Shown here one piece after another: positions 2,849 to 55,709 of a stretch of DNA of 64,000 nucleotides. Every line of letters starts with the position of its first letter. The first letter of the stretch is position 1. Source of the DNA: Acidobacteriota bacterium (GTDB taxonomy: Bacteria; Acidobacteriota; Vicinamibacteria; Vicinamibacterales; UBA2999); contig CANIBQ010000006.1 of the NCBI GenBank assembly GCA_947465645.1, positions 1-64,000 of the forward strand, written 5' to 3'. A program made the position numbers and the translations under genes. The notes beneath the pieces were generated by a model. It did not search any database, had not been told where the DNA came from, and saw only the letters and a program-made list of their open reading frames with translations.

Positions 2849-3604
2849 CTACGCGGGCGACCCGGTCTGCCGCGCCGCGTCGTACCGGCGGACATACAGC
2901 GGCCGGATGGCGTGCGGTGGCGGCCTCTCGCCCGCGCGCGCGGCGTCGGTGGCGAGCTGTCCGATGATGCCGGCGATGAGGGGCGAGGCCGGATCCGCGA
3001 TGCGCGCCCCTGCTCCACGCGTTGCCACGATCAGGTCGCGGAAGGTGCCAGCCCCGTCGCCGACAAACAGCGTCGGCTGCTGGTCCAGGCCCTGCAGGAC
3101 CGCCTCCGGCAGCGCGACAATCGGCGGCTCGACTTCCCTGCCGTCTTGATACAGCGCCGCGTACACCTCGCCACGCCACGCGTCGATCCAGGTGGCAACG
3201 CGTGTCTCGCGTGTCTCGCGTGTAAGCGCGTCAAGTGCAGTCCCGCCTGTGGGGCAAGCCTTGTCAGGCTTGCCCGGCGAGCCCGACAGGGCTCGCCCCA
3301 CGACCTCAAGAGAATCGAGCGCTGAAACCCCTATCAGCGGCTTGCCGGTCGCAAACGCCAGCCCCTGCATGGTCGCGATGCCGATTCGCAACCCGGTAAA
3401 CGAGCCTGGGCCCGTCGCCACCGCGAACACGTCCACGTCGCCCAGCTCCACGCCTTCCTGCTCGAGCAGCGCCATCAGCTCCCGCGGCAGCCGCGCCGCC
3501 GGTGCGCCGTTCGCCTCGCTCGCGGCCTCGCGCAGCACGCGCCGATCGCGCGTCAGCGCGCTGCTGCCGGCGCGCGTCGTGGTGTCCAGGGAGAGGACGA
3601 GCAT
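2849..3604 (-). CDS. tsaB: tRNA threonylcarbamoyladenosine biosynthesis protein TsaB (with inserted palindrome)
   Basis: TsaB is the partner of TsaD in making the universal t6A modification of tRNA. The N-terminus MLVLSLDTTTRAG and the stretch TGPGSFTGLRIGIATMQGLA are family signatures. The 251 residues exceed a typical TsaB because a 53-base PR1 palindrome is translated in frame after GVSALDSLEV, adding VGRALSGSPGKPDKACPT, followed by the simple run TRETRETRV. The conserved sequence then resumes with WIDAWRGEVYAALY. The insertion is between conserved blocks, so the protein may still work. It is transcribed with rimI. Confidence 0.9.
   Translation of the reverse strand: MLVLSLDTTTRAGSSALTRDRRVLREAASEANGAPAARLPRELMALLEQEGVELGDVDVFAVATGPGSFTGLRIGIATMQGLAFATGKPLIGVSALDSLEVVGRALSGSPGKPDKACPTGGTALDALTRETRETRVATWIDAWRGEVYAALYQDGREVEPPIVALPEAVLQGLDQQPTLFVGDGAGTFRDLIVATRGAGARIADPASPLIAGIIGQLATDAARAGERPPPHAIRPLYVRRYDAARQTGSPA
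3249..3301. repeat. PR1 palindrome, in-frame copy inside tsaB
   Basis: A 53-base element of two hairpin modules: GTGG, arm GGCAAGCC, loop TTGTCA, arm GGCTTGCC, spacer C, then arm GGCGAGCC, loop CGACAG, arm GGCTCGCC, and CCAC. Two of three frames on each strand have no stop, which allows translation. A tandem word run (CGTGTCTCG repeated) lies next to it at about 3200-3222. Confidence 0.9.
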
Positions 3605-3624
3605 GAGTTACGCGATAATAGCGG

Positions 3625-3700
3625 TCCCACTCCCAACTCCCCAACTTCCAACTCCCAACGTCTGGGCTTTGGGTCTTGGGCGTTGGGTCTTGGGACTTAT
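3625..3700. repeat. Short-word hairpin (AACTCCC / TTGGGTC type)
   Basis: The gap between tsaB and mutS holds a left arm of ACTCCCAACTCCCC-like words and a right arm of TTGGGTCTTGGG-like words, which are roughly inverse. The mutS ribosome-binding region lies at its right end. It belongs to the same class as the elements at 6424, 47591 and 62646. Confidence 0.75.
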
Positions 3701-3703
3701 CTG

Positions 3704-6424
3704 ATGTCCTCCACCACCTCCGTTTCCCCGGCGATGCGTCAGTACCTCGACGCCAAGCGCCAGCACCGCGACGCCATCGTCTTTTTCCGGATGGGGGACT
3801 TCTACGAGATCTTCTACGAGGACGCGCTGGTGGCGGCGCGCGCCCTCGACCTGACGCTGACGTCGCGCTCCAAGGACGCGGGCGGCGCCAGCATCCCGAT
3901 GTGCGGCCTGCCCTACCACGCCGTGGACGGCTACCTCGCGAAGCTGGTGAAGAAGGGCTTCCGCGTCGCGATGTGCGAGCAGGTGGAAGACCCGAAGAAA
4001 GCCAAGGGCCTGGTCAAGCGCGAGGTGGTCCGCGTCGTTTCGCCGGGCACGCTGACCGACAGCAGTTACCTCGAAGCCCGCGAGCCCGCCTACCTGATGT
4101 CGATCGTGGGGCGGGGGATCGTGGGGCCGGCCTTGTCAGGAACTGCTGCTTCTGTGGGGCAAACCTTGTCAGGTGTGCCCGGCCGGCCTGACAAGGCCGG
4201 CCCCACACGCGCAGACAGCGTGTTCGGCGTCGCGCTGATCGACCTCTCCACCGGCGAATTCACCACCGCCGAGTATCGCGGCCCGGACGGCATCCTCGCC
4301 CTCGCCGACGAGATCGCCGTCCTCCGGCCCCGCGAGCTCGTCCTGACCACCGATTCCACCATCGTCGAGACTTTCCCCGAGATCGCCCGCCTGCAGATGC
4401 CGGTGACGCGGACCGAAGGCTGGGGCTTCGAGCCCGACACGGCACGGCGCGCGCTGCTCGACCAGCTCAAGGTGCACGGCCTCGAGAGCTTCGGCCTCGA
4501 CGGCCACGGCGCCGCGATCCAGGCGGCGGGCGGCCTGCTGGCCTACCTGCGCGATTCGCAGAAAGCGGATCTCGCCCACGTGCGCACGGTCAGCTTCAAG
4601 TGCGCGGCCGACTGCCTGGTGATCGATCCGATCACCCTGAAGCACCTCGAGGTGGTGATCGGCGCCGAAGGCACGCCGCAAGGCTCCCTGCTCCATGAGA
4701 TCGACCGCACCGCGACGTCGATGGGCGCGCGCCTGCTGCGGTCGTGGCTGCTCAAGCCGCTGCTGGCGCTCGAGCCGATCCGCGACCGCCTGGACGCGGT
4801 CGAAGAGCTCGCCTTCCGCGCGACCGATCGAGGCAAGTTCCGCGAGACGCTCAAGACGGTGCACGACCTCGAGCGCCTGGTCGCCCGCGCCGCGCTCGGC
4901 AGCGCCGGACCGCGCGACCTGGTCGCCCTCCGCCAGTCGCTGGCCGCCGTCCCCCGTGTGAAAACGGTGCTGCAGGACGTCCAAGCGCCGCTGCTGCGCA
5001 GCCTGATCGCCGAGCTGGACGACCTCACCGACGTCCGCGACCTGATCGAGCGCACGCTGATCGACGAGCCGCCCGCCTTCGCGCGGGATGGCGGATTCAC
5101 CCGCGACGGCATCGATCCGGAGCTCGACGAGATCAAGACCATCAGCCGCTCGGGACGCCAGGTGATCGCCGAGATGGAAGAGGGCGAGCGGACGCGAACC
5201 GGGATCGCCTCGCTGAAAGTCCGCTTCAATCGGGTGTTCGGCTATTACATCGAGGTCTCGAAGTCGAACCTGCACGCGGTCCCGGGCGACTACCACCGCA
5301 AGCAGACGATTGCCGGCGGTGAGCGGTTCACGACGGTCGCGCTCAAGGAGTACGAGGAGAAGGTGCTCGGCGCGGACGAGCGGATCCTCGCGCGCGAGCT
5401 GGAGATTTTCGAGCGGCTTCGAGTCCAGGTCGGAGCGGAAGCGCCGCGCATCCAGGACACGGCGCGCGCCCTGGCCACGCTCGACGTCCTCGCCGCGCTC
5501 GCGGAGACGGCGGCGGTCTGCAACTACACCAAGCCGCACGTGCACGACGGCGACGAGTACGTGGCCACTGACGCCCGGCATCCGGTGGTCGAGCGCTTCG
5601 CGACCGACCCGTTCGTGCCCAACGACATCGATCTCAACGGCAACGCCCGCCAGCTGGTGATCCTCACCGGGCCGAACATGGGCGGCAAGTCCACCTACCT
5701 GCGGCAGACCGCGCTCATCCCGCTGATGGCGCAGATCGGCTCATTCGTCCCGGCGAAGGACGCGAAGGTGCCGCTGATCGACCGCATCTTCGCGCGCGTC
5801 GGCGCCTCCGACAACATCGCGCGCGGCCAGTCCACCTTCATGGTGGAGATGCAGGAGACCGCCAACATTCTCCACACCGCTTCGTCCCGCAGCCTGGTCG
5901 TGCTCGACGAGATCGGCCGCGGCACCTCGACCTTCGACGGATTGAGCATCGCCTGGGCGGTGGCCGAGCATCTCGCGACCAACCCGCTCGCCCGTCCCAA
6001 GACGCTTTTCGCCACCCACTATCACGAGCTGACCGACCTCGCCGACTCGCTCCCCGGCGTCGTCAACGCGCACGTCGCGGCCCGCGAGTGGAAGGACGAC
6101 ATCATCTTCCTGCGCAAGATCGTCCCCGGCCGATCCGACCGCAGCTACGGCATCCAGGTCGCGCGACTGGCAGGCCTGCCCCAGGCAGTGGTGACACGTG
6201 CCAAGGAGATCCTCGGGGGCCTCGAGCGCGACGAGCTCTTCCGCGGCGGCCGTCCCACGCTGTCGGGCGCGCCCGGCGATCTCGAGACCGAACAGCTTGG
6301 CCTTTTCACCGCCGGGAGCGATGATGAGATCACCAGACGCCTGAAGGCGCTGGACATCGATGACACCACGCCACGCCAGGCGCTGGAGCTGCTTTCAGAG
6401 CTCAAGAAGTTGACCGAGGAATGA
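3704..6424 (+). CDS. mutS: DNA mismatch repair protein MutS (with inserted palindrome)
   Basis: MutS recognises mismatches and starts repair with MutL. The mismatch-binding GDFYEIFYED (Phe-x-Glu) is near residue 30. The ATPase domain shows GPNMGGKST, DEIGRGTSTFDG and THYHEL. The 906-residue protein is slightly long because residues about 135-170 contain translated PR1 sequence (positions 4121-4206) between YLMSIV and FGVALIDLSTGEF, a linker between the first and connector domains. The start is the ATG at 3704; the upstream TTG at 3683 lies in the short-word repeat and was not used. The stop overlaps the next gene's ATG (ATGA). Confidence 0.96.
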   Translation: MSSTTSVSPAMRQYLDAKRQHRDAIVFFRMGDFYEIFYEDALVAARALDLTLTSRSKDAGGASIPMCGLPYHAVDGYLAKLVKKGFRVAMCEQVEDPKKAKGLVKREVVRVVSPGTLTDSSYLEAREPAYLMSIVGRGIVGPALSGTAASVGQTLSGVPGRPDKAGPTRADSVFGVALIDLSTGEFTTAEYRGPDGILALADEIAVLRPRELVLTTDSTIVETFPEIARLQMPVTRTEGWGFEPDTARRALLDQLKVHGLESFGLDGHGAAIQAAGGLLAYLRDSQKADLAHVRTVSFKCAADCLVIDPITLKHLEVVIGAEGTPQGSLLHEIDRTATSMGARLLRSWLLKPLLALEPIRDRLDAVEELAFRATDRGKFRETLKTVHDLERLVARAALGSAGPRDLVALRQSLAAVPRVKTVLQDVQAPLLRSLIAELDDLTDVRDLIERTLIDEPPAFARDGGFTRDGIDPELDEIKTISRSGRQVIAEMEEGERTRTGIASLKVRFNRVFGYYIEVSKSNLHAVPGDYHRKQTIAGGERFTTVALKEYEEKVLGADERILARELEIFERLRVQVGAEAPRIQDTARALATLDVLAALAETAAVCNYTKPHVHDGDEYVATDARHPVVERFATDPFVPNDIDLNGNARQLVILTGPNMGGKSTYLRQTALIPLMAQIGSFVPAKDAKVPLIDRIFARVGASDNIARGQSTFMVEMQETANILHTASSRSLVVLDEIGRGTSTFDGLSIAWAVAEHLATNPLARPKTLFATHYHELTDLADSLPGVVNAHVAAREWKDDIIFLRKIVPGRSDRSYGIQVARLAGLPQAVVTRAKEILGGLERDELFRGGRPTLSGAPGDLETEQLGLFTAGSDDEITRRLKALDIDDTTPRQALELLSELKKLTEE
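4121..4206. repeat. PR1 palindrome, one partial and one full copy inside mutS
   Basis: A partial left module (4121-4140) is followed by a complete 53-base element (4154-4206). The left arms of the full copy are slightly decayed (GGCAAACC against GGTGTGCC), while the right module is perfect. The whole unit is translated in frame as part of MutS. Confidence 0.88.
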
Positions 6425-8004
6425 CAACTCCCAACTCCGCAACTCCCAACTCCCAAGCGCGCGCGCGCTTTCGTAGCGTCGTGGTTGTGTTGGGGTTTGG
6501 TGTTTGGGCGTTGGGAGTTATCGGGTGCGGGTCGTCGAGCGCACCCGAGAGTGACGACGTCCTCAACGTCATCGTCCGCTCATCGCCCAACAACTTCGAC
6601 CCGCGCATCGGCACCGACGAAGTCTCCCAGCGCGTCCACGAGCTGGTCTACAGCCGGCTGATGGTCAACGGTCCCGACCTGCGCGTCGGTCCCGGTCTCG
6701 CCGCGCGGCTCGATAACCCGGATCCGCTCACCTACATCGCGCACCTGCGCACCGGCGTGCGCTTTCACGACGGCCGCGAGCTCACGTCGAAAGACGTCGT
6801 CTACACCTTCGGCAGCTTCCTCGACCCGGACTTCGTATCGCCTCGCAAGGGCGCGTACCGGGTGCTCGAGTCGGTGAAGGCGCTCGACGACTACACCGTC
6901 GAGTTCAAGCTGAAGGAACCGTTCGGCTCCTTCCCCATCCAGCTCGTGATGCCCGTCGTCCCCGCCGACTCGGGCGATTCGCTCCGCACCTTCCCCATCG
7001 GCACGGGACCGTATCGCTTCGTGCGCTACGCCACCGACGACCAGGTGGTGCTGTCAGCGTTTGAAGGCTTCTGGGATGGGCTGCCGCAGAACGCCGGCAT
7101 CGTGCTCCGCATCGTCCCCGACGAGACGATGCGCGGGCTGGAGCTGCGGAAGGGAACGGCGGACATGGCGGTGAACGACGTGTCGCCGGACATCGCCTAC
7201 GAGCTGGAAAAGCGCGGCGGGCTGACGATCGCGCAGTCGCTCGGCGTGGACTACAGCTACATCGGCCTCAACATGCGCGACCCGATCTTCGCCGACAAGC
7301 GGGTGCGCCATGCCATCGGCTACGCGGTGGACCGCGACGCCATCGTCAAGTACCTCCGCCGCGGGCTCGCGAGGCCGGCGGTCGGCGTCCTCTCGCCGGT
7401 CGCCTGGGCGTTCGAGCCGAACGTGCACCAGTTCACCCACGACATCGAGAAGGCGAAGCGCCTCCTGGACGAGGCCGGCTACCGGGATCCGGACGGCGAC
7501 GGTCCACAGCCGCGGCTGCGGTTGTCGCTCAAGACATCCACCGACGAGTTCATCCGGCTGCAGGCGACCGTCATCCAGCAGGATCTGAAGAAGGTGGGGA
7601 TCGAGACCGACGTGCGGTCGTATGAGTTCGCGACCTTCTACGCGGACGTCCTGAAGGGCGCCGTGCAGATGTACACGCTGCAGTGGGTGGGGGTGACCGA
7701 TCCCGACATGCTGCGGCGCGTCTACCACTCGCAGCAGGTGCCGCCGGTCGGCTTCAACCGGACCTACTACAAGAATCCCGAGGTCGATCGGTTGATCGAC
7801 CTCGCGTCAGCCGCGCCGACCGATGACGAGCGCAGGAAGTACTACGGAGAGGTCCAGAAGATCGTGGCCGAGGACGCGCCGTACATCAGCCTTTGGTACA
7901 AGACCAACATCGCCGTCACGCGCGCGAACATCACCGGCATGCGGATGTCCGCGCAGCCCGACTTCGCCGTGTTGAGGGATGTGAAGAAGGGCGCGACGAA
8001 CTAA
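6421..8004 (+). CDS. ABC transporter substrate-binding lipoprotein (peptide/nickel family, SBP_bac_5)
   Basis: A lipid-anchored binding protein of the oligopeptide/dipeptide class. The family signature is clear (LRTGVRFHDGRELTSKDVVYTF), as is the C-terminal LQWVGVTDPDMLRRVYHS region. At the N-terminus a hydrophobic run ends in the lipobox GVIGCGSS, giving a lipidated Cys at about residue 37. That signal peptide is encoded by a short-word hairpin (6424-6530). The start ATG overlaps the mutS stop. No permease or ATPase genes are nearby, so the transport partner must be elsewhere. Confidence 0.9.
   Translation: MTTPNSATPNSQARARFRSVVVVLGFGVWALGVIGCGSSSAPESDDVLNVIVRSSPNNFDPRIGTDEVSQRVHELVYSRLMVNGPDLRVGPGLAARLDNPDPLTYIAHLRTGVRFHDGRELTSKDVVYTFGSFLDPDFVSPRKGAYRVLESVKALDDYTVEFKLKEPFGSFPIQLVMPVVPADSGDSLRTFPIGTGPYRFVRYATDDQVVLSAFEGFWDGLPQNAGIVLRIVPDETMRGLELRKGTADMAVNDVSPDIAYELEKRGGLTIAQSLGVDYSYIGLNMRDPIFADKRVRHAIGYAVDRDAIVKYLRRGLARPAVGVLSPVAWAFEPNVHQFTHDIEKAKRLLDEAGYRDPDGDGPQPRLRLSLKTSTDEFIRLQATVIQQDLKKVGIETDVRSYEFATFYADVLKGAVQMYTLQWVGVTDPDMLRRVYHSQQVPPVGFNRTYYKNPEVDRLIDLASAAPTDDERRKYYGEVQKIVAEDAPYISLWYKTNIAVTRANITGMRMSAQPDFAVLRDVKKGATN
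6424..6530. repeat. Short-word hairpin forming the lipoprotein signal-peptide coding region
   Basis: The left arm is CAACTCCC words, then an alternating GC run, then a right arm of TTGGGGTTTGGTG and TTGGGCGTTGGGAGTT words. The right arm encodes the hydrophobic core (VVVVLGFGVWALGVIG) of the preceding CDS. Confidence 0.75.
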
Positions 8005-8010
8005 CAGCAC

Positions 8011-8079
8011 GTGGGGCGGACCTTGTGTGGGGCGGACCTTGTCAGGTCCGCCGGGCAAGCCTGACAAGGCTTGCCCCAC
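8011..8079. repeat. PR1 palindrome between convergent genes
   Basis: A partial left module (8011-8026) is followed by a full copy at 8027-8079. Its left module has arms GGCGGACC and GGTCCGCC and its right module has GGCAAGCC and GGCTTGCC. It sits between convergent genes and could act as a bidirectional terminator hairpin, although there is no T-tract. Confidence 0.9.
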
Positions 8080-8086
8080 TTAGACT

Positions 8087-8836
8087 TCAGATCTTCTCGA
8101 GCTCCGCGCGCGCTTCGGCGGAATAGGGCGACGTCGGGTGGTCGTCCACGATCTGCGTGAACGTCTTCTTCGCCTCTTCCTGGTTCCCTTTCGCCTGATA
8201 CGCCTTGGCGAGCTCCATCAGGATCGCGTCCTTCGGCAGCGTGTCGTCGGTGCTCGCCGCCAGCTCCTTCCAGGTCGCAATCGCGGCGTCGTGCTGGCCC
8301 GCGTTCATCTGGGTGTCAGCCTTCCCGAGCCGCGACATGCGTCCGTAGAGGCTCTCCGCTCCCGCGCGCTGCACGACCGCGTCGAACGCGGCGACCGCTT
8401 CGTCGTTCTTGCCGAGCGCGGCGAGTCCTGATGCGTAGTGATAGCGCGCGGTGATGCCCGACTCCGTGTCGGGATAGGTATCGGCTGCGGTCTTGAGCTT
8501 GGGCAGCGCGGCATTGAGCTTCGCCGCCTCTGAGGGGAAGGACCCCACCGCGCCCATTGTGGCGGCGGCGGGCAGTTCTCCCGGTGTCGCCGCGGTAGAC
8601 GACGGCGGGATGACGCGCGCGTCCATGACGACCATCGCCTCGGCCAGCGCCTGCTGCGCCTGCGAGTCGTCGCCCTGCCGCCACGCCGTGATGGCGAAGA
8701 TGGCGCCGACGATCACCAGCACCAGCACGACGAGCCCGGCGACCTGAGCCTTGCGGGGCTCGATGAAATCCCGCGCCGCACCCAGCGAGTGCGCCAGTTC
8801 GTTTTCTTTCAGATGATGACGTTCTTTGCGTTTCAT
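8087..8836 (-). CDS. Membrane-anchored tetratricopeptide-repeat protein (YfgM-like)
   Basis: The protein has 249 residues: a basic N-terminus (MKRKERHH), one membrane helix at about residues 33-51 (VAGLVVLVLVIVGAIFAITAW), then TPR-like helices outside the cytoplasm ending in DHPTSPYSAEARAELEKI. This layout matches YfgM-type and Tol-associated TPR proteins, which help periplasmic folding or outer-membrane assembly in other bacteria. The exact role here is inferred only from architecture. It is followed by PR1 and a convergent lipoprotein gene. Confidence 0.78.
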   Translation of the reverse strand: MKRKERHHLKENELAHSLGAARDFIEPRKAQVAGLVVLVLVIVGAIFAITAWRQGDDSQAQQALAEAMVVMDARVIPPSSTAATPGELPAAATMGAVGSFPSEAAKLNAALPKLKTAADTYPDTESGITARYHYASGLAALGKNDEAVAAFDAVVQRAGAESLYGRMSRLGKADTQMNAGQHDAAIATWKELAASTDDTLPKDAILMELAKAYQAKGNQEEAKKTFTQIVDDHPTSPYSAEARAELEKI

Positions 8837-8846
8837 ATCGTCTTTC

Positions 8847-8880
8847 GTCTGGGCCCTGGGGCCTGAGCCCTGGGCCCTTC
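8847..8880. repeat. Short-word repeat (GGGCCCTGGG type)
   Basis: CTGGGCCCTGGGGCCTGAGCCCTGGGCCC repeats one GC-rich word in both orientations between the tRNA and the TPR gene. It belongs to the short-word hairpin class. Confidence 0.6.
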
Positions 8881-8887
8881 TTGTTCG

Positions 8888-8964
8888 TGGCGTCCCCGGA
8901 CGGATTTGAACCGTCGGCCTCGCGCTTAGGAGGCGCGCGCTCTATCCAGCTGAGCTACGGGGAC
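8888..8964 (-). tRNA. tRNA-Arg (anticodon CCT)
   Basis: The reverse strand folds as a full cloverleaf. The acceptor stem is GTCCCCG paired with CGGGGAC, and the D arm is GCTC-GAGC. The anticodon stem is CGCGC/GCGCG with loop CTCCTAA, giving anticodon CCT, which reads AGG. The T arm is GACGG-TTCAAAT-CCGTC. The discriminator is G and the CCA end is encoded (8890-8888). Confidence 0.96.
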
Positions 8965-8983
8965 CTGACTTATTCTAACTGCC

Positions 8984-9056
8984 GGTCCGGCTAAAGCCGG
9001 ACACTACGACTGATGCCCCTTAAAGGACGTACGTAGTGTCCGGCTTTAGCCGGACC
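8984..9056. repeat. PR2 palindrome pair, opposed
   Basis: Two PR2 units face each other: GGTCCGGCTAAAGCCGGAC with ACTACG (8984-9008), and TACGTAGTGTCC GGCTTTAGCCGGACC (about 9028-9056). Together they form a large stem-loop between apt and the tRNA. The last bases of the second unit supply the apt stop codon. Confidence 0.88.
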
Positions 9057-9568
9057 TAGTACTGCAGCACCGAAAAGACGCGCTCGCCGGCGAGCTTCGC
9101 CTTTCCGTTCAGGAACAGCAGCTCGATCAGGAACGCCATCCCATAGAGGTCGCCCCCGAGTGTCTTCACCAGTTGCCCTGCTGCGGCGGCCGTCCCGCCT
9201 GTCGCCAGCACATCGTCCACGATCAGCACGCGCTGGCCCTTCTGGACCGCGTCCTCGTGGATTTCGAGCGCGTCCGTGCCGTACTCGAGATCGTAGGTCT
9301 CCTTGATCGCCTTCGCGGGGAGTTTCCCCGGCTTGCGGATCGGGATGAACCCGGCGCCAATGCGCTCGGCCACCGCCCCGCCGAGGATGAACCCGCGGCT
9401 CTCGATCCCGATCACCGCGTCGATGCCCTGCCCGATGTAGGGCGTCGACAGCAGGTCCACGGTGATCTTGAACCCCTGCGGGTCGCGCAGCAGTGTGGTG
9501 ATGTCGTAGAAGAGGATCCCCTGCTTCGGAAAGTCGGGAACGGAGCGGATATGTTGTTTAAGGTCCAT
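9056..9568 (-). CDS. apt: Adenine phosphoribosyltransferase
   Basis: It salvages adenine to AMP using PRPP. The 170-residue length is typical. The N-terminal FPKQGILFYDITTLL and the PRPP loop VLIVDDVLATGGTAAA are diagnostic. The TAG stop (9056-9058) lies at the edge of a PR2 palindrome. It is preceded by the acylphosphatase gene with a two-base gap, so they are probably co-transcribed. Confidence 0.96.
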   Translation of the reverse strand: MDLKQHIRSVPDFPKQGILFYDITTLLRDPQGFKITVDLLSTPYIGQGIDAVIGIESRGFILGGAVAERIGAGFIPIRKPGKLPAKAIKETYDLEYGTDALEIHEDAVQKGQRVLIVDDVLATGGTAAAAGQLVKTLGGDLYGMAFLIELLFLNGKAKLAGERVFSVLQY

Positions 9569-9570
9569 GG

Positions 9571-9843
9571 CTACCTGATTCGGAAATCCTTCGTCCCGGC
9601 TGGCACATCCTCATCGCACACGTGGACCGACTCCACTCGTGCCCCGCCAGGCCCCTGCCGCACTGCCCGCTCGACGCGATCCACGGCCTCGGCCTCGCCC
9701 TCTACGTAGGCCTCGACCCGGCCGTCGGGCAGGTTCCGCACCCATCCCGTGACGCCTTCGCGGTGCGCGGCTGTCTGGGTGAAGTAACGGAAACCCACAC
9801 CCTGGACGCGTCCACTGATGACGAACCGGCGTGCGACACGCAT
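9571..9843 (-). CDS. acyP: Acylphosphatase
   Basis: A small hydrolase (90 residues) of carboxyl-phosphate bonds such as acetyl phosphate. The signature [11 protein letters not shown] carries the catalytic Arg, and [12 protein letters not shown] carries the catalytic Asn. It lies two bases upstream of apt on the same strand. Confidence 0.95.
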
Positions 9844-9928
9844 TCGGGGAAGCGAGGATTATAGCGGTAATGCAGAGGTAAGGTGGGACAGCGCGCCCGT
9901 TATCAGGGCGCGCTGGTTGTGTTCGCTT

Positions 9929-9981
9929 GTGGGGCAAGCCTTGTCAGGCTTGCCCGGCCGGCCTGACAAGGCCGGCCCCAC
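9929..9981. repeat. PR1 palindrome
   Basis: A perfect 53-base copy: left module GGCAAGCC/GGCTTGCC, right module GGCCGGCC/GGCCGGCC. It lies in the gap just after the end of the EF-hand/lectin-like gene. Confidence 0.95.
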
Positions 9982-9988
9982 GTGCAGT

Positions 9989-11172: not shown

Positions 11173-11225
11173 GTGGGGCAAGCCTTGTCAGGCTTGCCCG
11201 GCCGGCCTGACAAGGCCGGCCCCAC
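11173..11225. repeat. PR1 palindrome
   Basis: A perfect 53-base copy, identical in module order to the one at 9929 (GGCAAGCC module, then GGCCGGCC module). It separates ppc from the EF-hand/lectin-like gene; both are on the minus strand. The two copies flank that gene in the same orientation. Confidence 0.95.
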
Positions 11226-11242
11226 GATCTCATGTGCAGTCT

Positions 11243-24865: not shown

Positions 24866-24930
24866 GGCGGGTCCAAGGACCCGCCCTACACGACTGCGCT
24901 GGTCGGCAAGCCTAACAAGGCTTGCCCCAC
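24866..24930. repeat. PR3 palindrome plus half PR1
   Basis: GGCGGGTCCAAGGACCCGCC with CTACA (24866-24890), then a worn right half of PR1 ending GGCTTGCCCCAC (24903-24930). PR3 recurs at 26894. Confidence 0.75.
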
Positions 24931-25113: not shown

Positions 25114-25488
25114 ATGGAGAGTATCCCGCTACTCATCGAGTTCGCCCCTGGGACATCCCTGTTGCGCGAGGGCGACCGGGTATCCGACCTGCCGATCGTC
25201 AGGAACGGACCCCCAGGCACGTTTGTCATCTTCCCGGGCGACCTGAGGGTCTCCCTCCCAACCGATCAAATCGTCTACGCGGACGACACACATGGCGCCG
25301 CGACGGTCGGATTCGGAGGCATGCGGTTCGAGGGCATGGACGATGGCCGCCTGGTGTTCATCCGCGTCCGCGAGCTTCACCCGGAGAGCGAGCTCTCCCC
25401 TGCGCGCAGCCACAGAATGACACTGGACCCGCGCTGGGTCTCTTCGATCACGGTGGATGGACGAGCGGTCTGGCCAATGAAGAAGTAG
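25114..25488 (+). CDS. Hypothetical protein
   Basis: The protein has 124 residues from the ATG at 25114, without signal peptide or membrane segment. It is rich in beta-type stretches (GTFVIFPGDLRVSLP, GRLVFIRVREL) and ends SSITVDGRAVWPMKK. I do not recognise a family. The start was chosen because an upstream ATG at 25093 lies inside the motif GATGGTATGGTC, which is shared with two other genes and looks regulatory. It is flanked by repeat-rich gaps. Confidence 0.55.
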   Translation: MESIPLLIEFAPGTSLLREGDRVSDLPIVRNGPPGTFVIFPGDLRVSLPTDQIVYADDTHGAATVGFGGMRFEGMDDGRLVFIRVRELHPESELSPARSHRMTLDPRWVSSITVDGRAVWPMKK

Positions 25489-25504
25489 GCGCCGTTCCGG
25501 CGCC

Positions 25505-25531
25505 TGGCCGACCTGACAAGGTCGGCCCCAC
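25505..25531. repeat. Half PR1 (single hairpin module)
   Basis: One module only: GGCCGACC, loop TGACAA, GGTCGGCC, then CCAC. The same module recurs twice near 26275-26332. It shows that PR1 halves occur alone. Confidence 0.8.
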
Positions 25532-25607: not shown

Positions 25608-26219
25608 ATGGCGGGACGCGACTTATCGGAACGCGTAGAAATTCTGGAGCAAAGAGTGGGATCGCTGGCATCACTCCCGGCCAAGGTCACGGCCCTGACC
25701 AAGGACGTCGGCACGCTGAGGGAGGAATTTTCGCAATTCCGCGCCGAGGTGCGGGTTGAATTTTCTGCCATCCGGAACCAGATGGGCGGGCTCCACGAGG
25801 TCACGATGACCCGGTCGCTGGAGCTTCACGAGGCTGGAACAGCGCAGACCTTGGGGCTGCACGACAAGGCAATCGCCCGGATGGACGGTCTCCACGGAAT
25901 TGCCATGACCCGGTCGCTGGAGCTTCACGAGGCTGGGACAGCGCAGACCTTGGGGCTGCACGACAAGGCAATCGCCCGGATGGACGGTCTCCACGAGGTC
26001 GCCATGACCCGATCGCTGGAGTTCCACGACGCCGGAAAGGCACACGCCCTCGGGCTGCATGACGAGGCGATGGCGCGCATGGAGCACCTGCACGGCATCG
26101 CGATGACCGCGACGCGGGAACTTCAGGCGACGCTGCAAACCGATCTACGCGCGATACTCGCCCGGCTGGACGAGCCTCGCCCTTCGCGACCGCGCCGCAG
26201 TCCCCGCGCGAAGCGATAG
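25608..26219 (+). CDS. Coiled-coil protein with 11-residue (hendecad) tandem repeats
   Basis: The protein has 203 residues and no signal or membrane segment. The first 60 residues are a coiled coil (RVEILEQRVGSLASLPAKV, then LREEFSQFRAEVRVEFSAIR) that is clearly paralogous to the protein at 29227. Residues 67-165 are three 33-residue repeats, each made of three 11-mers such as MTRSLELHEAG, TAQTLGLHDKA and IARMDGLHGIA, with His at a fixed position in each. The C-terminus is very basic (RPSRPRRSPRAKR). A GGGAGGAG site precedes the ATG. The function is unknown; a filament or DNA-tethering role would fit the shape. Confidence 0.75.
   Translation: MAGRDLSERVEILEQRVGSLASLPAKVTALTKDVGTLREEFSQFRAEVRVEFSAIRNQMGGLHEVTMTRSLELHEAGTAQTLGLHDKAIARMDGLHGIAMTRSLELHEAGTAQTLGLHDKAIARMDGLHEVAMTRSLEFHDAGKAHALGLHDEAMARMEHLHGIAMTATRELQATLQTDLRAILARLDEPRPSRPRRSPRAKR
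25806..26102 (+). repeat. Three tandem 99-base repeats in the coiled-coil gene
   Basis: The period is 99 bases (33 codons). The first two copies are nearly identical in DNA and the third is diverged, so one duplication looks recent. Confidence 0.85.
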
Positions 26220-26274
26220 CGATAGATAAGGCGGGTCCACTGGCCTTGGAAGTAGGCGCCGTTCCGGCGCCTGG

Positions 26275-26332
26275 CCGACCTCACAAGGTCGGCCCCACGT
26301 ACTGACTGCGCTTGTCACAAGGTCGGCCCCAC
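26275..26332. repeat. Two half-PR1 modules
   Basis: GGCCGACC-TCACAA-GGTCGGCC with CCAC (26275-26301), then a second, partial TTGTCACAAGGTCGGCCCCAC (about 26310-26332). They overlie the broken 3' end of the VOC fragment. Confidence 0.75.
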
Positions 26333-26556: not shown

Positions 26557-26895
26557 ATGTTTGACTGGTTCAAGAGGAACACGCCGGCGCCTGCCCCGAT
26601 CTCGGTGGCCCCGGAGCCGAAAGCGGCGCCGAAGAAGGCTGGAGGACGGATGGACGGCAAGTACCTGCCGCTCTTCAACTACCTTGAGCACCGCTACGCG
26701 AACACGGTCGTCCTGACGTTCCAGCAGATCGAGGATCTCCTGGAGTCGGCCCTGCCGGCCCCGGCCCGCACCGATGCCGCGTGGTGGTCGCCCGGCGGTT
26801 CCGACGCGCGCTACGCGCTGGCGTGGACGCAGGCGGAGATGACCGCGAAGCCGAACATCCTCGCGCAGAACGTGATTTTCGAACGCGCGCCGTAG
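26557..26895 (+). CDS. DUF7662-like small protein
   Basis: The protein has 112 residues: a basic and Pro/Ala-rich N-terminus (MFDWFKRNTPAPAP) followed by KYLPLFNYLEHR, VVLTFQQIEDLLESALPAPAR, AAWWS and a C-terminal ALAWTQAEM. This pattern resembles small DUF7662-type domains as I recall them. Their function is unknown. The sequence GACGACGATAGTGATGG just before the ATG partly resembles the palindrome found upstream of the neighbouring coiled-coil genes. Confidence 0.68.
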   Translation: MFDWFKRNTPAPAPISVAPEPKAAPKKAGGRMDGKYLPLFNYLEHRYANTVVLTFQQIEDLLESALPAPARTDAAWWSPGGSDARYALAWTQAEMTAKPNILAQNVIFERAP

Positions 26896-26920
26896 GCGGG
26901 TCCACAGGACCCGCCCTACA
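26894..26920. repeat. PR3 palindrome
   Basis: GGCGGGTCCACAGGACCCGCC followed by CTACA, directly after the stop of the DUF7662-like gene. It is the same family as 24866. Confidence 0.8.
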
Positions 26921-34419: not shown

Positions 34420-34472
34420 GTGGGGCAAGCCTTGTCAGGCTTGCCAGGCCGGCCTGACAAGGCCGGCCCCAC
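34420..34472. repeat. PR1 palindrome
   Basis: A 53-base copy with GGCAAGCC and GGCCGGCC modules; the spacer between them is AGG instead of CGG. It lies between the hybrid kinase and the small gene at 34103. Confidence 0.93.
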
Positions 34473-37036: not shown

Positions 37037-37090
37037 GTGGGGCGGGCCTTGTCAGGCCCGCCGGGGCAAGCCTGACAAGGCTTGCCCCAC
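37037..37090. repeat. PR1 palindrome
   Basis: A 54-base copy: left module GGCGGGCC/GGCCCGCC, right module GGCAAGCC/GGCTTGCC. It sits between the convergent M48 and RND-TolC genes. Confidence 0.93.
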
Positions 37091-45787: not shown

Positions 45788-47592
45788 GTATCTGGCCGCG
45801 CAGGCTGAAGCCTGCGCTCTACATTCTTCTAGGGCTCGCATGTGCGGGGTCGGCAAGCGCGCAGACGAGGGCGCACGTCGAGGTGCTGGCTTCGGATCGG
45901 CTCGAGGGTCGCGAGGCGGGCTCCGCGGGCGAGAGGCTTGCGGCCGAATACATCGCCGCCCAGCTCACGCGCATCGGCGCCAGGCCGCTGCCGGGCCGGG
46001 CGGACATGTTCGTGCCGTTCGAGTTCACCGCCGGCAGCCGGGACGGCGGCTCGCGCGTCACGATCACGCAAGGGGGAACGGCGCGCGCATTCGCCTCGCG
46101 CTCCGACATCCAGGCGCTGTCCTTCTCGGACGATGCCGAGGTCAGCGGCAGCGTGGTATTTGCCGGCTACGGTCTGGTGGTTCCCGAGTCCCAGAACTTC
46201 GGCTACGACAGCTATGCCACGCTCGACGTCAGGGACAAGATCGTCGTCGTCCTTCGCTACTTTCCCGAAGACGCCGACCAGCAGACGCGCGCGGTGCTCG
46301 CCCGCTATGCCGACCTGCGCTACAAGGCGATGGCCGCCCGGCAGCGCGGCGCCAGAGCGCTGCTGGTGGTCACCGGCCCGCGTTCTCCGAACGCCGGCAC
46401 GCTCGTGCCGATGACCTTCGATACCGCCATCGCCGGATCCGGCATTCCCGCCGCCAGCGTCAGCGGCGCAATAGCCGACGCGCTCTTTTCGCCCGGGTCG
46501 AAATCCTTACGCGACGTGCAGCAGGAGCTCGATTCGGCCAACCCGCACGTCGCCGGCTTCGAGCTGCCGGGCGTGACGGTCACCCTCACAACAGCCGTCG
46601 TCCGCGAGAAGCAGACCGGACGCAACGTGATCGCCTACCTCCCCGCCACGCAGCCGCTGACCGGCGTTGACAAGGCGTGGGTGGCGGTCGGCGCGCACTA
46701 CGACCACCTGGGTCGCGGCGGCAAAGGCCACTCGCTCGCATCCCAGGCAGACGCCTCCGCCATCCACTATGGGGCCGATGACAACGCCTCCGGCACCGCC
46801 GCCGCCATCGCGATCGCGCAGGCGCTCGCCTCGCAGCCGAGACGCCGTCACGTGCTCATCGCGCTCTGGTCGGCTGAGGAGATCGGCCTGGTGGGATCCA
46901 ACGCGTTCGTCGTCGCGCCGCCGGTGCCGATCGCCCAGGTCGCGGCGTACTTCAACTTCGACATGGTCGGGCGCATGAGCGGCAACAAGCTGATCGTCCA
47001 GGCCACCGGCACGAGCCCGACGTGGGCACGGCTGCTCGAGCGCGCCAATGTCGCCGCCGGGTTCGACCTGGTGATCCAGCCCGACCCGTATCAGCCGACC
47101 GACGTCGCCACGTTCAACCAGGCGAGCGTCGCGAGCCTGGCCTTCTCCACCGGCGCGCACGCGGACTACCACAAGCCGTCCGACACGGCTGACAAGATCA
47201 ACTACGCCGACCTCGATCGCATCGTCACGATGGCCGTGGCGCTGGTGCGCGCGACCGCGGATGCCGACCAGGCGCCGCAGTTCTCCAAGGTCGATCAGCC
47301 GATCTCACGGGGCAGCATCGCGGGGGTGCGCGTGACGACGGGAACCATTCCCGACTACGCGACCGAGGTGAAGGGACTGCTGCTCGGCGGGGTGACCGGC
47401 GGCGGACCGGCGGATCGCGCCGGCCTGATGAAGGGAGACATCATCATCGAGATCGCCGGCCAGACGATCGCCAACATCTACGACTACACCTACGCGCTGG
47501 AGCTCCTGAAGGTCGATCAGGCGGTGAAGGTCGTCTACACCCGTGCCGGCGAAAAGCGCGAGACGCAGATGATTCCCGCTGCGCGCCGCTGA
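45784..47592 (+). CDS. Secreted M28 family metallopeptidase with PA and PDZ domains
   Basis: A two-zinc aminopeptidase-type enzyme of 602 residues. After the signal peptide come a PA insert (about residues 110-230) and the M28 catalytic core: VGAHYDHLG, GADDNASGTAA, WSAEEIGLVGS, FNFDMVGRM, and HADYHKPSDT with the last ligand His. A C-terminal PDZ (LLLGGVTGGGPADRAGLMKG) follows. The signal peptide begins MSIWPRRLKPALYILLGLA and is partly encoded by a PR4 palindrome (45797-45822). The ATG overlaps the preceding stop. The longer frame beginning at 45202 is a shadow of the propeller gene. Confidence 0.93.
   Translation: MSIWPRRLKPALYILLGLACAGSASAQTRAHVEVLASDRLEGREAGSAGERLAAEYIAAQLTRIGARPLPGRADMFVPFEFTAGSRDGGSRVTITQGGTARAFASRSDIQALSFSDDAEVSGSVVFAGYGLVVPESQNFGYDSYATLDVRDKIVVVLRYFPEDADQQTRAVLARYADLRYKAMAARQRGARALLVVTGPRSPNAGTLVPMTFDTAIAGSGIPAASVSGAIADALFSPGSKSLRDVQQELDSANPHVAGFELPGVTVTLTTAVVREKQTGRNVIAYLPATQPLTGVDKAWVAVGAHYDHLGRGGKGHSLASQADASAIHYGADDNASGTAAAIAIAQALASQPRRRHVLIALWSAEEIGLVGSNAFVVAPPVPIAQVAAYFNFDMVGRMSGNKLIVQATGTSPTWARLLERANVAAGFDLVIQPDPYQPTDVATFNQASVASLAFSTGAHADYHKPSDTADKINYADLDRIVTMAVALVRATADADQAPQFSKVDQPISRGSIAGVRVTTGTIPDYATEVKGLLLGGVTGGGPADRAGLMKGDIIIEIAGQTIANIYDYTYALELLKVDQAVKVVYTRAGEKRETQMIPAARR
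45797..45822. repeat. PR4-type palindrome in the M28 signal-peptide coding region
   Basis: GCGCAGGCTGAAGCCTGCGC followed by TCTAC, read as RRLKPALY. It is related in core (GGCTGAAGCC) to the palindrome at 29629. Confidence 0.7.
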
Positions 47593-47657
47593 CTCCCAAC
47601 TACCAACCCCGCAACTCCCAACGCTTGGGAGTTGGGCGTCTTGGGGGTTGGGAATTA
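47591..47657. repeat. Short-word hairpin (AACTCCC / GGGAGTT)
   Basis: The left arm ACTCCCAACTACCAACC and CAACTCCCAACG faces the right arm TTGGGAGTTGGGCG and TTGGGGGTTGGG. It forms a clear stem-loop between convergent genes and may act as a terminator for both. Confidence 0.82.
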
Positions 47658-48428: not shown

Positions 48429-48474
48429 GCAGCCTTCAATCCTACCTCAGCGCCTCTCGCGACCGCGGCTCACC

Positions 48475-48503: not shown

Positions 48504-48527
48504 CGATCTGTATCAAGGTTGGGCCCC

Positions 48528-48872: not shown

Positions 48873-48940
48873 GATGCCTTGTGCCTCTGGCCTTTGGTCT
48901 TTGGTAGGGACCAGAGGCTAGAGGCCAAAGGCCAGAGACT
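48873..48940. repeat. Short-word hairpin (GCCTTTGG / CCAAAGGC)
   Basis: CTCTGGCCTTTGGTCTTTGG pairs with CCAGAGGCTAGAGGCCAAAGG around the loop GTAGGGA. It lies between hspR and dnaJ inside the operon and could attenuate downstream genes or protect mRNA. Confidence 0.82.
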
Positions 48941-49939
48941 ATGGAATTCAAGGACTACTACAACACGCTTGGCGTGACCAAGGCCTCGACCGAGAAGGAG
49001 ATCAAGGGCGCCTTCCGGAAGCTGGCCCGCAAGCATCACCCGGACGTCAACCCGGGCGACAAGCAGGCGGAGTCGCGGTTCAAGGACATCAACGAGGCCT
49101 ACGAGGTCCTGGGCGATCCGGCCAAGCGCAAGAAGTACGACGAGCTCGGCTCGAACTGGCGGGCCTACGAGCAGGCGGAGGCGCAGGGCGGGCCCAACCC
49201 GTTTGCGGGCCAGTGGAATCCCGGCGCCGGCGGCCAGGGCGGCGGCTTCCGCGGGATGACGCAGGAAGAGATGGCGGAGATGTTCGGGGACCAGAACCCC
49301 TTCTCCGACTTCTTCACGACATTCTTCGGCGGTGGCGGCGGCGCCGACCCGCGGCGTGGGGCCGGTGGACGGGCCCGTTCGCGGCAGCGACCCGGCCGCG
49401 ACGTCGAGCACGAGATCGAGCTGACGCTCGAGGACGCCTACGACGGCACGACGCGCCGGCTGTCGATGAAGCATGACGGTCACGCGCGCACCGTCGACGT
49501 GCGCATCCCGGCGGGCGTTGGCGATGGCTCGCGGGTGCGGGTCGCCGGCGAGGGCGAGCACGGCGTCGCCGGGGCGCAGTCGGGCGACCTGTATCTGCGC
49601 GTCCGCCTCGCGGTGCATCCGGAATTCGAACGCAAGGGACGCGATCTGTACGTCAAAGTACCCATTCCGGTGACCACCGCGGTGCTGGGCGGCGAAGCGG
49701 AAGTGAAGACACTGAGCGGCAAGGCGGTGCGCCTGCGGATCCCGCCGCTCACGCAGAATGGCCAGGTGTTCAGGCTGAAGGGCTACGGGATGCCCAAGGT
49801 GGGCAAACCGGACGAAAAAGGCGACCTGTACGCCCGCGTCGAGGTGCAGATGCCGACTGAGAATTCACCGTCGGAACGTGAACACTGGGAGGCCCTGGCA
49901 AAACTCGCTGGAGGAGCGGCCAACACCTCGGCCGCGTGA
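48941..49939 (+). CDS. DnaJ-class co-chaperone (CbpA-like, no zinc finger)
   Basis: An N-terminal J-domain ([31 protein letters not shown] with HPD) is followed by a Gly/Phe-rich linker and the two beta-barrel C-terminal domains ([21 protein letters not shown]). The four CxxCxGxG repeats of full DnaJ are absent, so it is a class B co-chaperone of 332 residues. It passes client proteins to DnaK, which is not in the window. It is followed immediately by clpB. Confidence 0.9.
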
Positions 49940-49941
49940 TC

Positions 49942-52539
<2,598 letters not shown>

Positions 52540-54477
52540 ATGGCGACTCCACGCACACCGCCGGGGACCAACCCCCGCGACAAGCGGCAAGGCGAGCGCC
52601 GGACGTTCGGCCAGGGCGGCCGGCCGGCAGGAGCCGTCTGGTACGTGCTCGGCTTCCTGTTCCTGATGGCGCTCGCCCAGGCCTGGTTCCTGGCGCCCTC
52701 GGGCCGCCAGATCTCCTACTCCGAGTTCAAGCAGGCCGTGCGGGGGGGGCAGCTCGCCGAGGTCGCCGTCGGGGAGCAGACCATCCGCGGCAGCTTCAAG
52801 ACCGAAACCGGCGGCAGCCTGAACTTCAACACCAACCGCATCGAGGATCCCAAGCTCCTCGAGGAGCTCGACGCCGCGGGCGTCAAGTACACCGGTGAGC
52901 TCATCAACCGGTGGCTGCCGGAGATCCTGGGCTGGGTCCTTCCGCTGCTGCTCCTCTTCGGCATCTGGAGCTTCTTCTTCCGGCGGATGGGCGGCGCCGA
53001 GGGCGGCGTCATGTCCTTCGCGCGCAGCAAGCACAAGGTGTTTGCCGAAGACGATGTGAAGGTAAGCTTCGCGGACGTGGCGGGCGTCGACGAGGCCGAG
53101 CAGGAGCTCAAGGAGATCGTCGAGTTCCTCAGGACGCCCAAGAAATACACGGCGCTCGGCGGGCGCATCCCCAAGGGCGTGCTCCTGGTGGGACCGCCCG
53201 GCACCGGCAAGACCCTGCTCGCCCGCGCCGTCGCCGGTGAAGCGAAGGTCCCCTTCTTCAGCATGAGCGGCTCGGAGTTCGTCGAGATGTTCGTCGGCGT
53301 CGGCGCGGCGCGCGTGCGGGATCTCTTCAGCCAGGCCGAACAGAAGGCGCCCTGCATCATCTTCATCGACGAGCTCGACGCGCTCGGCCGGGCGCGCGGG
53401 CAGAACCCGATGGGCTCACACGAGGAGCGCGAGCAGACGCTGAACCAGCTCCTCGCCGAGATGGATGGCTTCGACTCGCGCAAGGCGATCATCATCATGG
53501 GCGCCACCAACCGTCCCGAGGTGCTCGACCCGGCGCTGCTGCGGCCGGGCCGCTTCGACCGGCAGGTGCTCGTCGACAAACCCGACATCAACGGCCGCGA
53601 GCAGGTGCTGAAGATCCACACCAAGAACGTGAAGCTCTCGGAGAACGTCGACCTGAGGATCATCGCCGCCCGCACGGCGGGCTTCGCGGGCGCCGACCTG
53701 GCCAACCTGGTGAACGAGGCGGCGCTGCTCGCGGCGCGCAAGGACAAGACCTCGGTCGAGATGTCGGATTTCGACGAAGCGATCGACCGGCTGATCGCGG
53801 GCCTCGAGCGCAAGCGCGTGATGAACACGAAGGAGCGCGAGATCGTCGCCTATCACGAGTCGGGACACGCGATCGTCGCGACCCTGATCACCGACATGGA
53901 TCCGGTCCACAAGATCTCCATCGTCCAGCGGGGTTTCGGCGCGCTCGGCTACACGATGCAGCTGCCGCTTGAAGACCGCTACCTGATGCAGGAGGTCGAT
54001 CTGCTCAACCAGCTTGCCGTCCTGCTCGGCGGCCGGACGGCGGAGGAGATTGCGCTCGGCAAGATCTCGACCGGCGCGCAGAACGACCTGCTGCGGGCGA
54101 CCGACATCGCGCGCGCCATGGTCACCGAGTGGGGCATGAGCGAGGTGCTCGGGGCGATCAACTACGACGGCCACAAGCGGAACAAGTTCCTCGAGATGCA
54201 GATGGGCCCCGAGCGCGGCGTCTACGCCGACGACACGGCGCGGCTGATCGACGCCGAGGTGAAGCGCATCATGACCGACGCGCACGACCGGGCGACGCGC
54301 ATCCTGACCGACAAGCGCGACATGCTCGAAGCCGTCACGCGGCGGCTGCTGGAAATAGAGGTCATGGAGGGCGAGGAGCTGCGCCGCATCATGGGGGTTC
54401 CGCCGCCGCCGCCCGAGGCGCTCGCCGAGACGACTCCCCTGCCGCCGACCAGCGATCTGCCGGTGCTCGACGCCTGA
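52540..54477 (+). CDS. ftsH: Membrane-bound ATP-dependent zinc metalloprotease FtsH
   Basis: It degrades misfolded membrane and regulatory proteins. Two membrane helices ([19 protein letters not shown] and [19 protein letters not shown]) flank a periplasmic domain. The AAA domain has [26 protein letters not shown] and the [11 protein letters not shown], and the protease domain has HESGH. The 645-residue length is typical. The ATG directly follows the clpB stop, extending the heat-shock operon. Confidence 0.97.
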
Positions 54478-54482
54478 GTACG

Positions 54483-55652
54483 ATGGCTCAACACGCCTAC
54501 GCGGTGGCGGCCCTGGTCGCGCCGAAGGTCGCGGAACACCTGCGGCTGCACCGCACCACCGCCCCGCTCGACGCGCAGCAGGCGTCGGGAGACCTGCTGC
54601 CGGACGCGCCGGTGATCGAGGCGCTGGTGGACGCCGCGTTCTGGGCGAGCGTGCGCCGCGAGGAAGGGTACGTCCCCAAGATCTCTCTTGCCTACGTCCC
54701 GCCCCGTCCCGAGATCCTGCCGCTGCTGTTCGAGCACGCGATGTCGCTCGACCCGGGCGCGCTCACCAAGCTGGCTGCCGCGGTCGAGCGCCCGGGCATC
54801 CACCTCGGTGTGTGGTCCGCCTCCGCCAAGGCTTCGGCGGGACAGGCCGGTGACGGTCCGCTGATGGTCTGGGGCACCACCCACGCCCTGCCGCCCTTCT
54901 GCTTCGTCGTCGAAGTCATCGCGCCCGGCCTGCTGGTGCTGAAGCACCGGCCGCGGCAGGAATCCCGGAAGTTCATCAACGTGGCGGTGCTCGAGGGCGA
55001 TCGCATGAAGATCGTCGACGAGGCGGGGTCGCGCATCGCCGACTGCCCCGCCCTGCTGACGTCGATGATCGGCTTCGACACCCAGGCCGAGGACGGCACG
55101 ATCAACGTGCTGGTGCAGCTCGCGCTCTCGATGCGCAAGCATGGCCGCGGCGGCATTCTGCTCGCGGTGCCGGCGGAGAGCAGCACCTGGCGCGAATCGA
55201 TCGTCCATCCGATCGCCTACGGTGTGAGCCCGCCGTACACGGAGCTGGCGGACCTGGTGGCCGCCGGCCGCGCCAACGCGCCGAACGACGACTGGCTGGA
55301 CGCCGTCAACCGAGCGGTTGACGCGCTCGCCGGGCTGACCGCGGTCGACGGGGCGCTGGTCATGAGCAACCGCTACGACGTGCTCGCATTCGGCGCCAAG
55401 ATCAACCGCCGCAAGGGCGCGCAGCTGATCGAGCAGATCGTGGTCACCGAGCCGGTCGAGGGGTCGTCGGCGGAATGGATGCACCCGGGACAGCTTGGCG
55501 GCACACGTCATCTCTCGGCCGCGCAGTTCGTCCACGATCAGCGCGACGCGCTGGCGCTGGTCGCGTCGCAGGACGGCCGCTTCACGATCTTCGCCTGGTC
55601 GCCGTGCGACGGCGCCGTGCACGCGCACCGGGTCGAAACGTTGTTGTTATAG
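54483..55652 (+). CDS. DAC-like (DisA_N-related, DACNV-type) protein, possible c-di-AMP enzyme or sensor
   Basis: The protein has 389 residues and no signal peptide. The C-terminal part matches diadenylate cyclase logic: DGALVMSNRYDVLAFGAKI around residue 289 (DGA motif) and GTRHLSAAQFVHDQRDALALV near 341 (RHR/RHT-type motif). The N-terminal 250 residues are a DACNV-like region. It might synthesise c-di-AMP or only bind a nucleotide. A PR5 palindrome is translated in frame (SASAKASAGQ, residues about 113-122). The ATG lies five bases after the ftsH stop, so it probably belongs to the stress operon. Confidence 0.78.
   Translation: MAQHAYAVAALVAPKVAEHLRLHRTTAPLDAQQASGDLLPDAPVIEALVDAAFWASVRREEGYVPKISLAYVPPRPEILPLLFEHAMSLDPGALTKLAAAVERPGIHLGVWSASAKASAGQAGDGPLMVWGTTHALPPFCFVVEVIAPGLLVLKHRPRQESRKFINVAVLEGDRMKIVDEAGSRIADCPALLTSMIGFDTQAEDGTINVLVQLALSMRKHGRGGILLAVPAESSTWRESIVHPIAYGVSPPYTELADLVAAGRANAPNDDWLDAVNRAVDALAGLTAVDGALVMSNRYDVLAFGAKINRRKGAQLIEQIVVTEPVEGSSAEWMHPGQLGGTRHLSAAQFVHDQRDALALVASQDGRFTIFAWSPCDGAVHAHRVETLLL
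54819..54846. repeat. PR5 palindrome inside the DAC-like gene
   Basis: GCCTCCGCCAAGGCTTCGGC with GGGACAG; the arms CCGCC and GGCGG surround AAGGCTT. It is translated as SASAKASAGQ. Single copy in this window. Confidence 0.6.
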
Positions 55653-55656
55653 CGTT

Positions 55657-55709
55657 GTGGGGCCGGCCTTGTCAGGCCGGCCGGGCAAGCCTGACAAGGC
55701 TTGCCCCAC
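55657..55709. repeat. PR1 palindrome
   Basis: A 53-base copy with the module order reversed relative to 9929: GGCCGGCC first, then GGCAAGCC. It lies between the DAC-like gene and the hydrolase gene and may end the stress operon. Confidence 0.95.

Follow-up and report, generated by a model that had tools for sequence, protein, structure and literature searches.

The closest described systems to the repeat reported here are the REPs of the GTAG-tagged superfamily (Di Nocera et al. 2013, PMC3733652) and the REPINs (Bertels and Rainey 2011, PMC3116915). The available part of PMC3733652 names Proteobacteria, Cyanobacteria, Chloroflexi, and PVC as carriers of GTAG REPs, notes a GTGG tag in most GTAG-20 elements of Opitutus terrae, and reports insertions within genes for Opitutus and Rickettsia; Acidobacteria appear there only with transposases that have unrelated terminal repeats. 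The preference for heterodimers is given no obvious explanation in that text, and escape from SbcCD is proposed. For REPINs, compensatory changes are called common and a “clover” fold is proposed as the RAYT substrate (PMC3116915, available part). Palindrome counts have been listed for three Acidobacteriota genomes (PMC12306157, available part), so REP-like repeats as such are not new to the phylum, and a rare RAYT class, class 3, whose flanking structures are atypical, is recorded in Planctomycetes, Acidobacteria, and Proteobacteria (PMC6006769, available part). Here, we report PR1, very probably a GTGG-tagged REP family with a head-to-head dimer as its unit (REPIN/BIME-like), dispersed by a cognate RAYT. 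New here are the family, the group that hosts it, and the candidate RAYT clade; co-variation and in-frame insertion have precedents.

The window (the whole 64-kb stretch of DNA analyzed) contained eight full PR1 elements (53 to 54 bp) and four further halves. Each half consisted of a GTGG tag, a 9-bp stem, and a 4-nt loop (TGTC as read from the GTGG side), and each full element of two halves in inverted orientation, separated in the window by 1 to 2 nt. An earlier sequence-only reading had recognized the hairpins and described them as 8-bp arms around TTGTCA or TGACAA, which is corrected here. A pattern search returned all eight of its full copies (3249, 4154, 8027, 9929, 11173, 34420, 37037, and 55657) with the arms that it gave; its length of 53 bp holds for most of them (the 37037 copy has 54 bp and a 2-nt spacer), and the arms that it took to be always paired mostly are, with one mismatch in the left stem of the 4154 copy. 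In the half at 3276 to 3301, the T-A closing pair was replaced by C-G. The half pattern matched 20 times in the 64-kb window (up to three mismatches) against a mean of 0.01 in 100 shuffles, and GTRG-tagged hairpins overall numbered 32 against a mean of 1.2 and a maximum of 4 (30 shuffles). DNA folding of four window copies gave two adjacent hairpins (z-scores, −5.0 to −7.1), and Rfam at its gathering threshold returned only a tRNA from the window.

Six of the eight window dimers were extragenic, all within 32 bp of a stop codon, and two lay in frame within genes. Written as the triplets of their two halves, the intergenic dimers were GGA/AAG at 8027 to 8079 (+), flanked by two convergent genes; AAG/CGG at 9929 to 9981 (+), with a stop codon 7 bp away; AAG/CGG at 11173 to 11225 (+), 17 bp beyond the stop of a PEP carboxylase gene; AAG/CGG at 34420 to 34472 (+), 8 bp from the stop of a histidine kinase gene; GGG/AAG at 37037 to 37090 (+; 54 bp), with convergent genes on either side; and the copy at 55657 to 55709 (−), 4 bp past a stop. 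The last is the exact reverse complement of 9929 to 9981, so the difference in module order once seen between these two copies is one of orientation, and that reading was rejected. Halves are nonetheless interchangeable in the sense of mosaic dimers, the AAG half occurring in seven of the eight with CGG, GAG, GGA, or GGG as its partner. A single AAG half was located at 24905 to 24930 (−). The supposed single modules near 25505 and 26275 stand directly after a GTAG-tagged hairpin of other sequence (GTAGGCGCCGTTCCGGCGCC) and are parts of hybrid dimers, one joining that hairpin to an inverted PR1 half (CGA) at 25485 to 25531 and a near-identical one at 26252 to 26298 (no strand assigned to either).

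PR1 has the tetranucleotide tag at the foot of a 6- to 13-bp stem with a short loop by which GTAG/GTRG-tagged REPs are recognized (the search pattern itself required the tag, so tag frequency is no independent evidence), and it is present in many dispersed copies, in the window and in relatives, with a mainly extragenic placement (counted on the window dimers only). Two inverted REPs as a unit, the mark of REPINs and BIMEs, were found in 49 listed dimers, eight of them in the window.

A second REP family (GTAGTGTCCGGCTTTAGCCGGAC, GTAGTGTCCGGCTT[TC]AGCCGGAC) had tags at 9007(−), 9033(+), 16185(+), 20521(−), 28785(−), 59268(−), and 59309(+); its type adjoins RAYT genes in relatives (L153, L167, L266, L277, L279, and L282) and has its own branch in the RAYT tree. 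Further GTAG-tagged hairpins of other sequence were seen at 24866 to 24889, 26892 to 26919, 45822(−), and 29651(−) (GTAGGGCGGGTCC..., GTAGAGCGCAGGC..., GTAGAGGAGGCC...), some of them resembling repeats beside RAYTs in L267, L269, and L154. Short repeats of the type CTCCCAACTCCCAAC (3616 to 3700, 6414 to 6450, 47586 to 47622, and 62641 to 62677) are not REP-like; TTGGGTCTTGGG follows the first of them in inverse sense. Three 99-bp direct tandem repeats (25778 to 26074) lie between the two hybrid dimers in an open reading frame without a Pfam match.

Of the two dimers within genes, that at 3249 to 3301 (+; AAG/GAG) was in frame inside tsaB (2849 to 3604, −; TIGR03725, 149.2 bits; cut-off, 69.3), and the segment that it encodes (VVGRALSGSPGKPDKACPT) was absent from the six relatives with a fully printed alignment. 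The other, at 4154 to 4206 (+; AAA with one mismatch/CGG), was in frame inside mutS (3704 to 6424, +). Its protein has 33 more residues between domains I and II than those of L001 and L002, encoded by PR1 and by a truncated half at 4121 to 4140 (+; half-pattern search); L004 and L005 carry other, unrelated residues in the same linker. Both the MutS and the TsaB of the window scored far above curated cut-offs. The truncated half, the single half at 24905 to 24930, and the in-frame position of the 3249 and 4154 copies go beyond the sequence-only reading. In relatives, PR1 was found inside matches to TruA, RNase E/G, and amidase profiles, and at interdomain positions in an ABC exporter and an ABC-F protein. 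A long open reading frame spanned PR1 in 32 of 41 relative copies, which alone is no evidence at such GC content; claims of PR1 within genes rest on profile-supported genes. The PR1 copy of L218 is probably upstream of the gene's true start.

PR1 occupied nearly the same spot in xanthine-dehydrogenase-type subunits of two genomes (L102 in G006 and L106 in G027), perhaps an inherited insertion that would be useful as a dated copy. PR1-like residues in the TruA loop of G006 also occurred in G035 and G036, with a different reading frame in G036 (by eye), while most other TruA rows had none in that loop; the alignment suggests that the loop has been hit by repeated insertion. By eye, the TruA proteins of L119, L295, L299, and L301 had PR1-like loop residues in different frames, a possible recurrent landing site. 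The in-frame copies in mutS, tsaB, TruA, and RNase E/G indicate that core informational genes tolerate such insertions.

The three proteins nearest to the window's MutS (78 to 80% identical) came from Acidobacteriota metagenome-assembled genomes (MAGs), followed by records titled Vicinamibacteria. Two loci titled Acidimicrobiia (L010 and L024) had MutS proteins 66 to 69% identical to the window's that fell among Vicinamibacteria and are possibly mislabeled bins. Within one family, 10 of 43 genomes contained the GTGG-to-loop part (up to one mismatch), and across the class 10 of 193 genomes had an exact match to a longer PR1 pattern; reversed control patterns gave one match each in G043 and G044. 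A covariance model of the PR1 half (R1, trained on such copies; 150 candidates scored per genome) gave matches in 12 of 20 chosen genomes and none in the other 8. It matched at least 54 times in G036, at least 22 times in G026, and at least 17 times in G027; G001, the nearest relative by MutS, had one weak match. The exact 53-bp pattern had no matches in collections of viral contigs and genome contigs. In the window and its relatives, no movement was observed and no base-exact empty site was obtained.

Co-variation was measured on 108 halves, taken from the window plus 113 loci in relatives by a pattern that did not constrain the three central stem bases and tolerated at most one mismatch elsewhere, after removal of duplicates of the same 48-nt context. 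The variable triplet was fully paired in 96 of them, against a mean of 25.3 and a maximum of 41 in 10,000 shuffles, which bears out the claim of co-varying arms; 12 halves were mismatched. Nine paired triplet types occurred, some in many copies, and tag and loop were conserved across PR1 halves while stems varied. The sequence-only reading had offered selection on structure or copying of whole modules, in agreement with the nine paired triplets and the conserved tag and loop, and both are probably at work. Among 43 distinct halves, 95.6% of stem cells were paired, compared with 82.7% in column shuffles and 22 to 49% in slid structures, the stem structure having been derived from those same sequences; two-sided change affected 58 cells, compared with 18.4 in shuffles. 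Counted as pairs, such change was not unusual (5 versus 3.9, a value reached in 119 of 500 shuffles). Because related copies are not independent, these figures show constraint and amplification and do not count events.

No RAYT was detected in the window, as the earlier reading had said of a REP-associated Y1 transposase: the best tblastn match among 121 RAYT queries had an E value of 0.002, several of the ten matches at E up to 0.05 were PR1 copies themselves, and a RAYT profile that detected its positive control L155 at 7e-71 found nothing at E up to 1. Y1_Tnp was present in 32 of 43 family genomes. The earlier reading had proposed a search for a Y1 gene carrying flanking copies, and such genes were found in two relatives. 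In G002, the RAYT of L155 (P0001; NF047646, 101.6 bits; cut-off of the curated RAYT model, 80) had a PR1-type dimer on each side; one dimer has an enlarged loop, and the other differs from a dispersed copy in the same genome (L085) by one loop base, one spacer base, and, in one half, the outer stem pair. In G030, the RAYT of L161, the closest in the class to that of L155 (56% identical), was bordered on one side by three PR1-type dimers in tandem and on the other by a half and a dimer, every one of them with a GCGG tag. Loops at both of these REPtrons, that is, RAYTs flanked by copies of the family (TTCA, TTTCA, and similar), were shorter than in most dispersed TTGTCA copies.

REPtrons were found in 2 of the 12 PR1-bearing genomes. 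The loci read in the others (RAYTs of G104 in part) included no PR1-flanked RAYT: the single RAYT of G036, which has the most PR1 copies, had another REP on its flanks, and G027 yielded none (both draft MAGs). In a search of 396 genomes spread evenly over the phylum for a closer RAYT, only G002 itself was returned (E, 1e-40). Near RAYTs, 137 tagged hairpins were counted in 71,380 bp, compared with 25 in 180,446 bp far from them, about 14-fold denser (82 RAYT genes from 100 loci, with tandem arrays inflating the near figure; 11 loci without a RAYT by BLAST were left out of flank reading). GTRG- or GCAG-tagged hairpins stood on both sides within 450 bp at 19 of the 82 RAYT genes; a loose fuzzy PR1 scan gave mostly chance matches and was not counted as evidence. 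A quick tree of 94 rows put the RAYTs with PR1 flanks (two) and those whose loci contain the second REP family (nine) on separate branches (SH-aLRT of 91 each, below its 95 mark). All P rows of this tree were fetched as matches of P0001, so their closeness to it follows from how they were chosen; an independent contrast is that of L264 and L265 (the L155 and L161 genes) with nine PR2-type loci, with labels taken from the whole locus and not from flanks alone. Protein ends encoded by PR1 were found in 5 of 121 RAYT proteins (P0010, P0016, P0020, P0044, and P0045) at 25.8 to 33.5 bits, against at most 22.3 bits in five shuffled sets. The label of PR1-peptide RAYT was rejected for P0006, P0015, and P0050, which were not above shuffled controls.

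We propose that the PR1 unit is two inverted REPs a few nucleotides apart, each with GTGG, a 9-bp stem, and a TGTC loop, and that a cognate RAYT (TnpA_REP, an HuH/Y1 transposase) located outside the window would disperse it. The enzyme would read the tag, the loop, and the intact pairing of the single-stranded hairpin, not the sequence of its stem; stems would therefore change only by paired steps, with later amplification of each working variant. Recognition, cleavage, and movement by the RAYT are what we infer from the analogous pairs in PMC8266576, and we infer that the window's own genome carries such a RAYT. The elements are probably mobile. The presence of a PR1-flanked RAYT in only 2 of 12 PR1-bearing genomes slightly weakens the proposal, and it is also what an alternative would lean on, together with the lack of a RAYT in the window: that PR1 is a MITE or some other repeat, moved by an unrelated transposase or spread through recombination alone, its RAYT neighbors being coincidental. 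We judge this highly improbable, as two RAYT loci in two genomes have PR1-type dimers on both sides, tagged hairpins are enriched near RAYTs, and the two REP families have separate RAYT branches.

The stop-codon proximity of all six intergenic window dimers (within 32 bp) would also suit a role in host RNA (protection of mRNA 3′ ends, attenuation, or termination) for which PR1 and its pairing are kept. Copies inside mutS, tsaB, TruA, RNase E/G, and other genes, a patchy distribution among relatives (10 of 193 genomes), conservation of tag and loop while stems vary, and PR1-type dimers flanking RAYT genes make this origin very unlikely, and such a role could be secondary to mobility. Paired changes could also arise without selection. 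A single template switch at a hairpin can alter several bases of an arm together, and quasipalindrome correction of this kind would copy one arm onto the other before the variants spread. The 12 mismatched halves among 108 are what its intermediates would look like; yet it does not account for the conservation of tag and loop, the association with RAYTs, or the lasting difference between the halves of one dimer. As a full account it is unlikely, though less so than the two preceding readings, and it may have worked in concert with RAYT dispersal, so that the confidence given to the two overlaps.

Of the 49 dimers, 11 had a decayed half, and none of the 38 intact dimers was a homodimer, whereas random pairing within genomes would give 9.8. 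When the 16 combinations were counted once each, 1.0 homodimer was expected (P of none, 0.34), so founder copying may suffice for the absence; in the L092 dimer, both halves have the same triplet and differ in the outer base. With the split point between hairpins allowed to vary, a two-hairpin fold was favored in 48 of the 49 real dimers (median, 7.1 kcal/mol) and, on the other strand, again in 48 of 49 (median, 8.1 kcal/mol), whereas one long hairpin was favored in 98 of 98 model homodimers (median, 12.2 kcal/mol). In the window copies, the gain of the two-hairpin fold ranged from 0.8 to 9.0 kcal/mol, and some gained little (0.8 to 2.4). These modeled energies and the absence of homodimers allow the tentative idea, which we hold to be possible but on balance doubtful, of a double rule by which each half would pair with itself and not with its partner, giving two RAYT-readable hairpins and no long, deletion-prone palindrome. 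If true, the rule would account for the co-variation of the arms as well as for an excess of REP heterodimers that has had no explanation. PR1 fits both the SbcCD escape and the clover-substrate proposals, and is a clean case for asking why REP dimers so often join two different halves.

PR1 adds a REP/RAYT pairing in Vicinamibacteria, a soil-type Acidobacteriota lineage, and the phylum of its host is not listed among GTAG-REP carriers in the available part of PMC3733652. It offers many naturally co-varying stems with candidate cognate transposases. The sequence-only reading had allowed that PR1 might be a known REP family mobilized by a RAYT: RAYTs with flanking PR1-type copies are present here in two relatives, and tagged REPs in head-to-head dimers with complementary stem changes are a described kind (PMC3733652, available part), but the same sequence was not found described in the literature searched.

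Compared with GTAG REPs as presented in the available part of PMC3733652, PR1 likewise consists of short tagged stem-loops joined as head-to-head heterodimers, some with 1- to 2-bp spacers; both have complementary stem variants, hybrid dimers, copies near gene ends, in-frame copies in DNA/RNA processing genes, and RAYT neighbors, and PR1 differs in its TGTC loop and its own stem series. Palindromes in frame in conserved protein genes are also shared with Rickettsia RPE-4, RPE-6, and RPE-1 (via PMC3733652, available part). RPE-4 and RPE-6 are given there as CGTC-type and without an associated transposase, whereas PR1 has a GTGG tag, for which RPE membership was rejected, and RAYT neighbors in two relatives. 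With REPINs (PMC3116915, available part), PR1 shares an inverted REP doublet as the proposed replicating unit and an association with RAYTs; its spacer is a few nucleotides rather than tens of bases, and its two-hairpin fold is the more stable in 48 of 49 dimers, whereas the REPIN clover fold is called less stable. The Group 3 TnpA_REP/REP pairs (PMC8266576, available part) resemble PR1 in a REP with a perfect stem and, probably, in the importance of tag, loop, and intact pairing.
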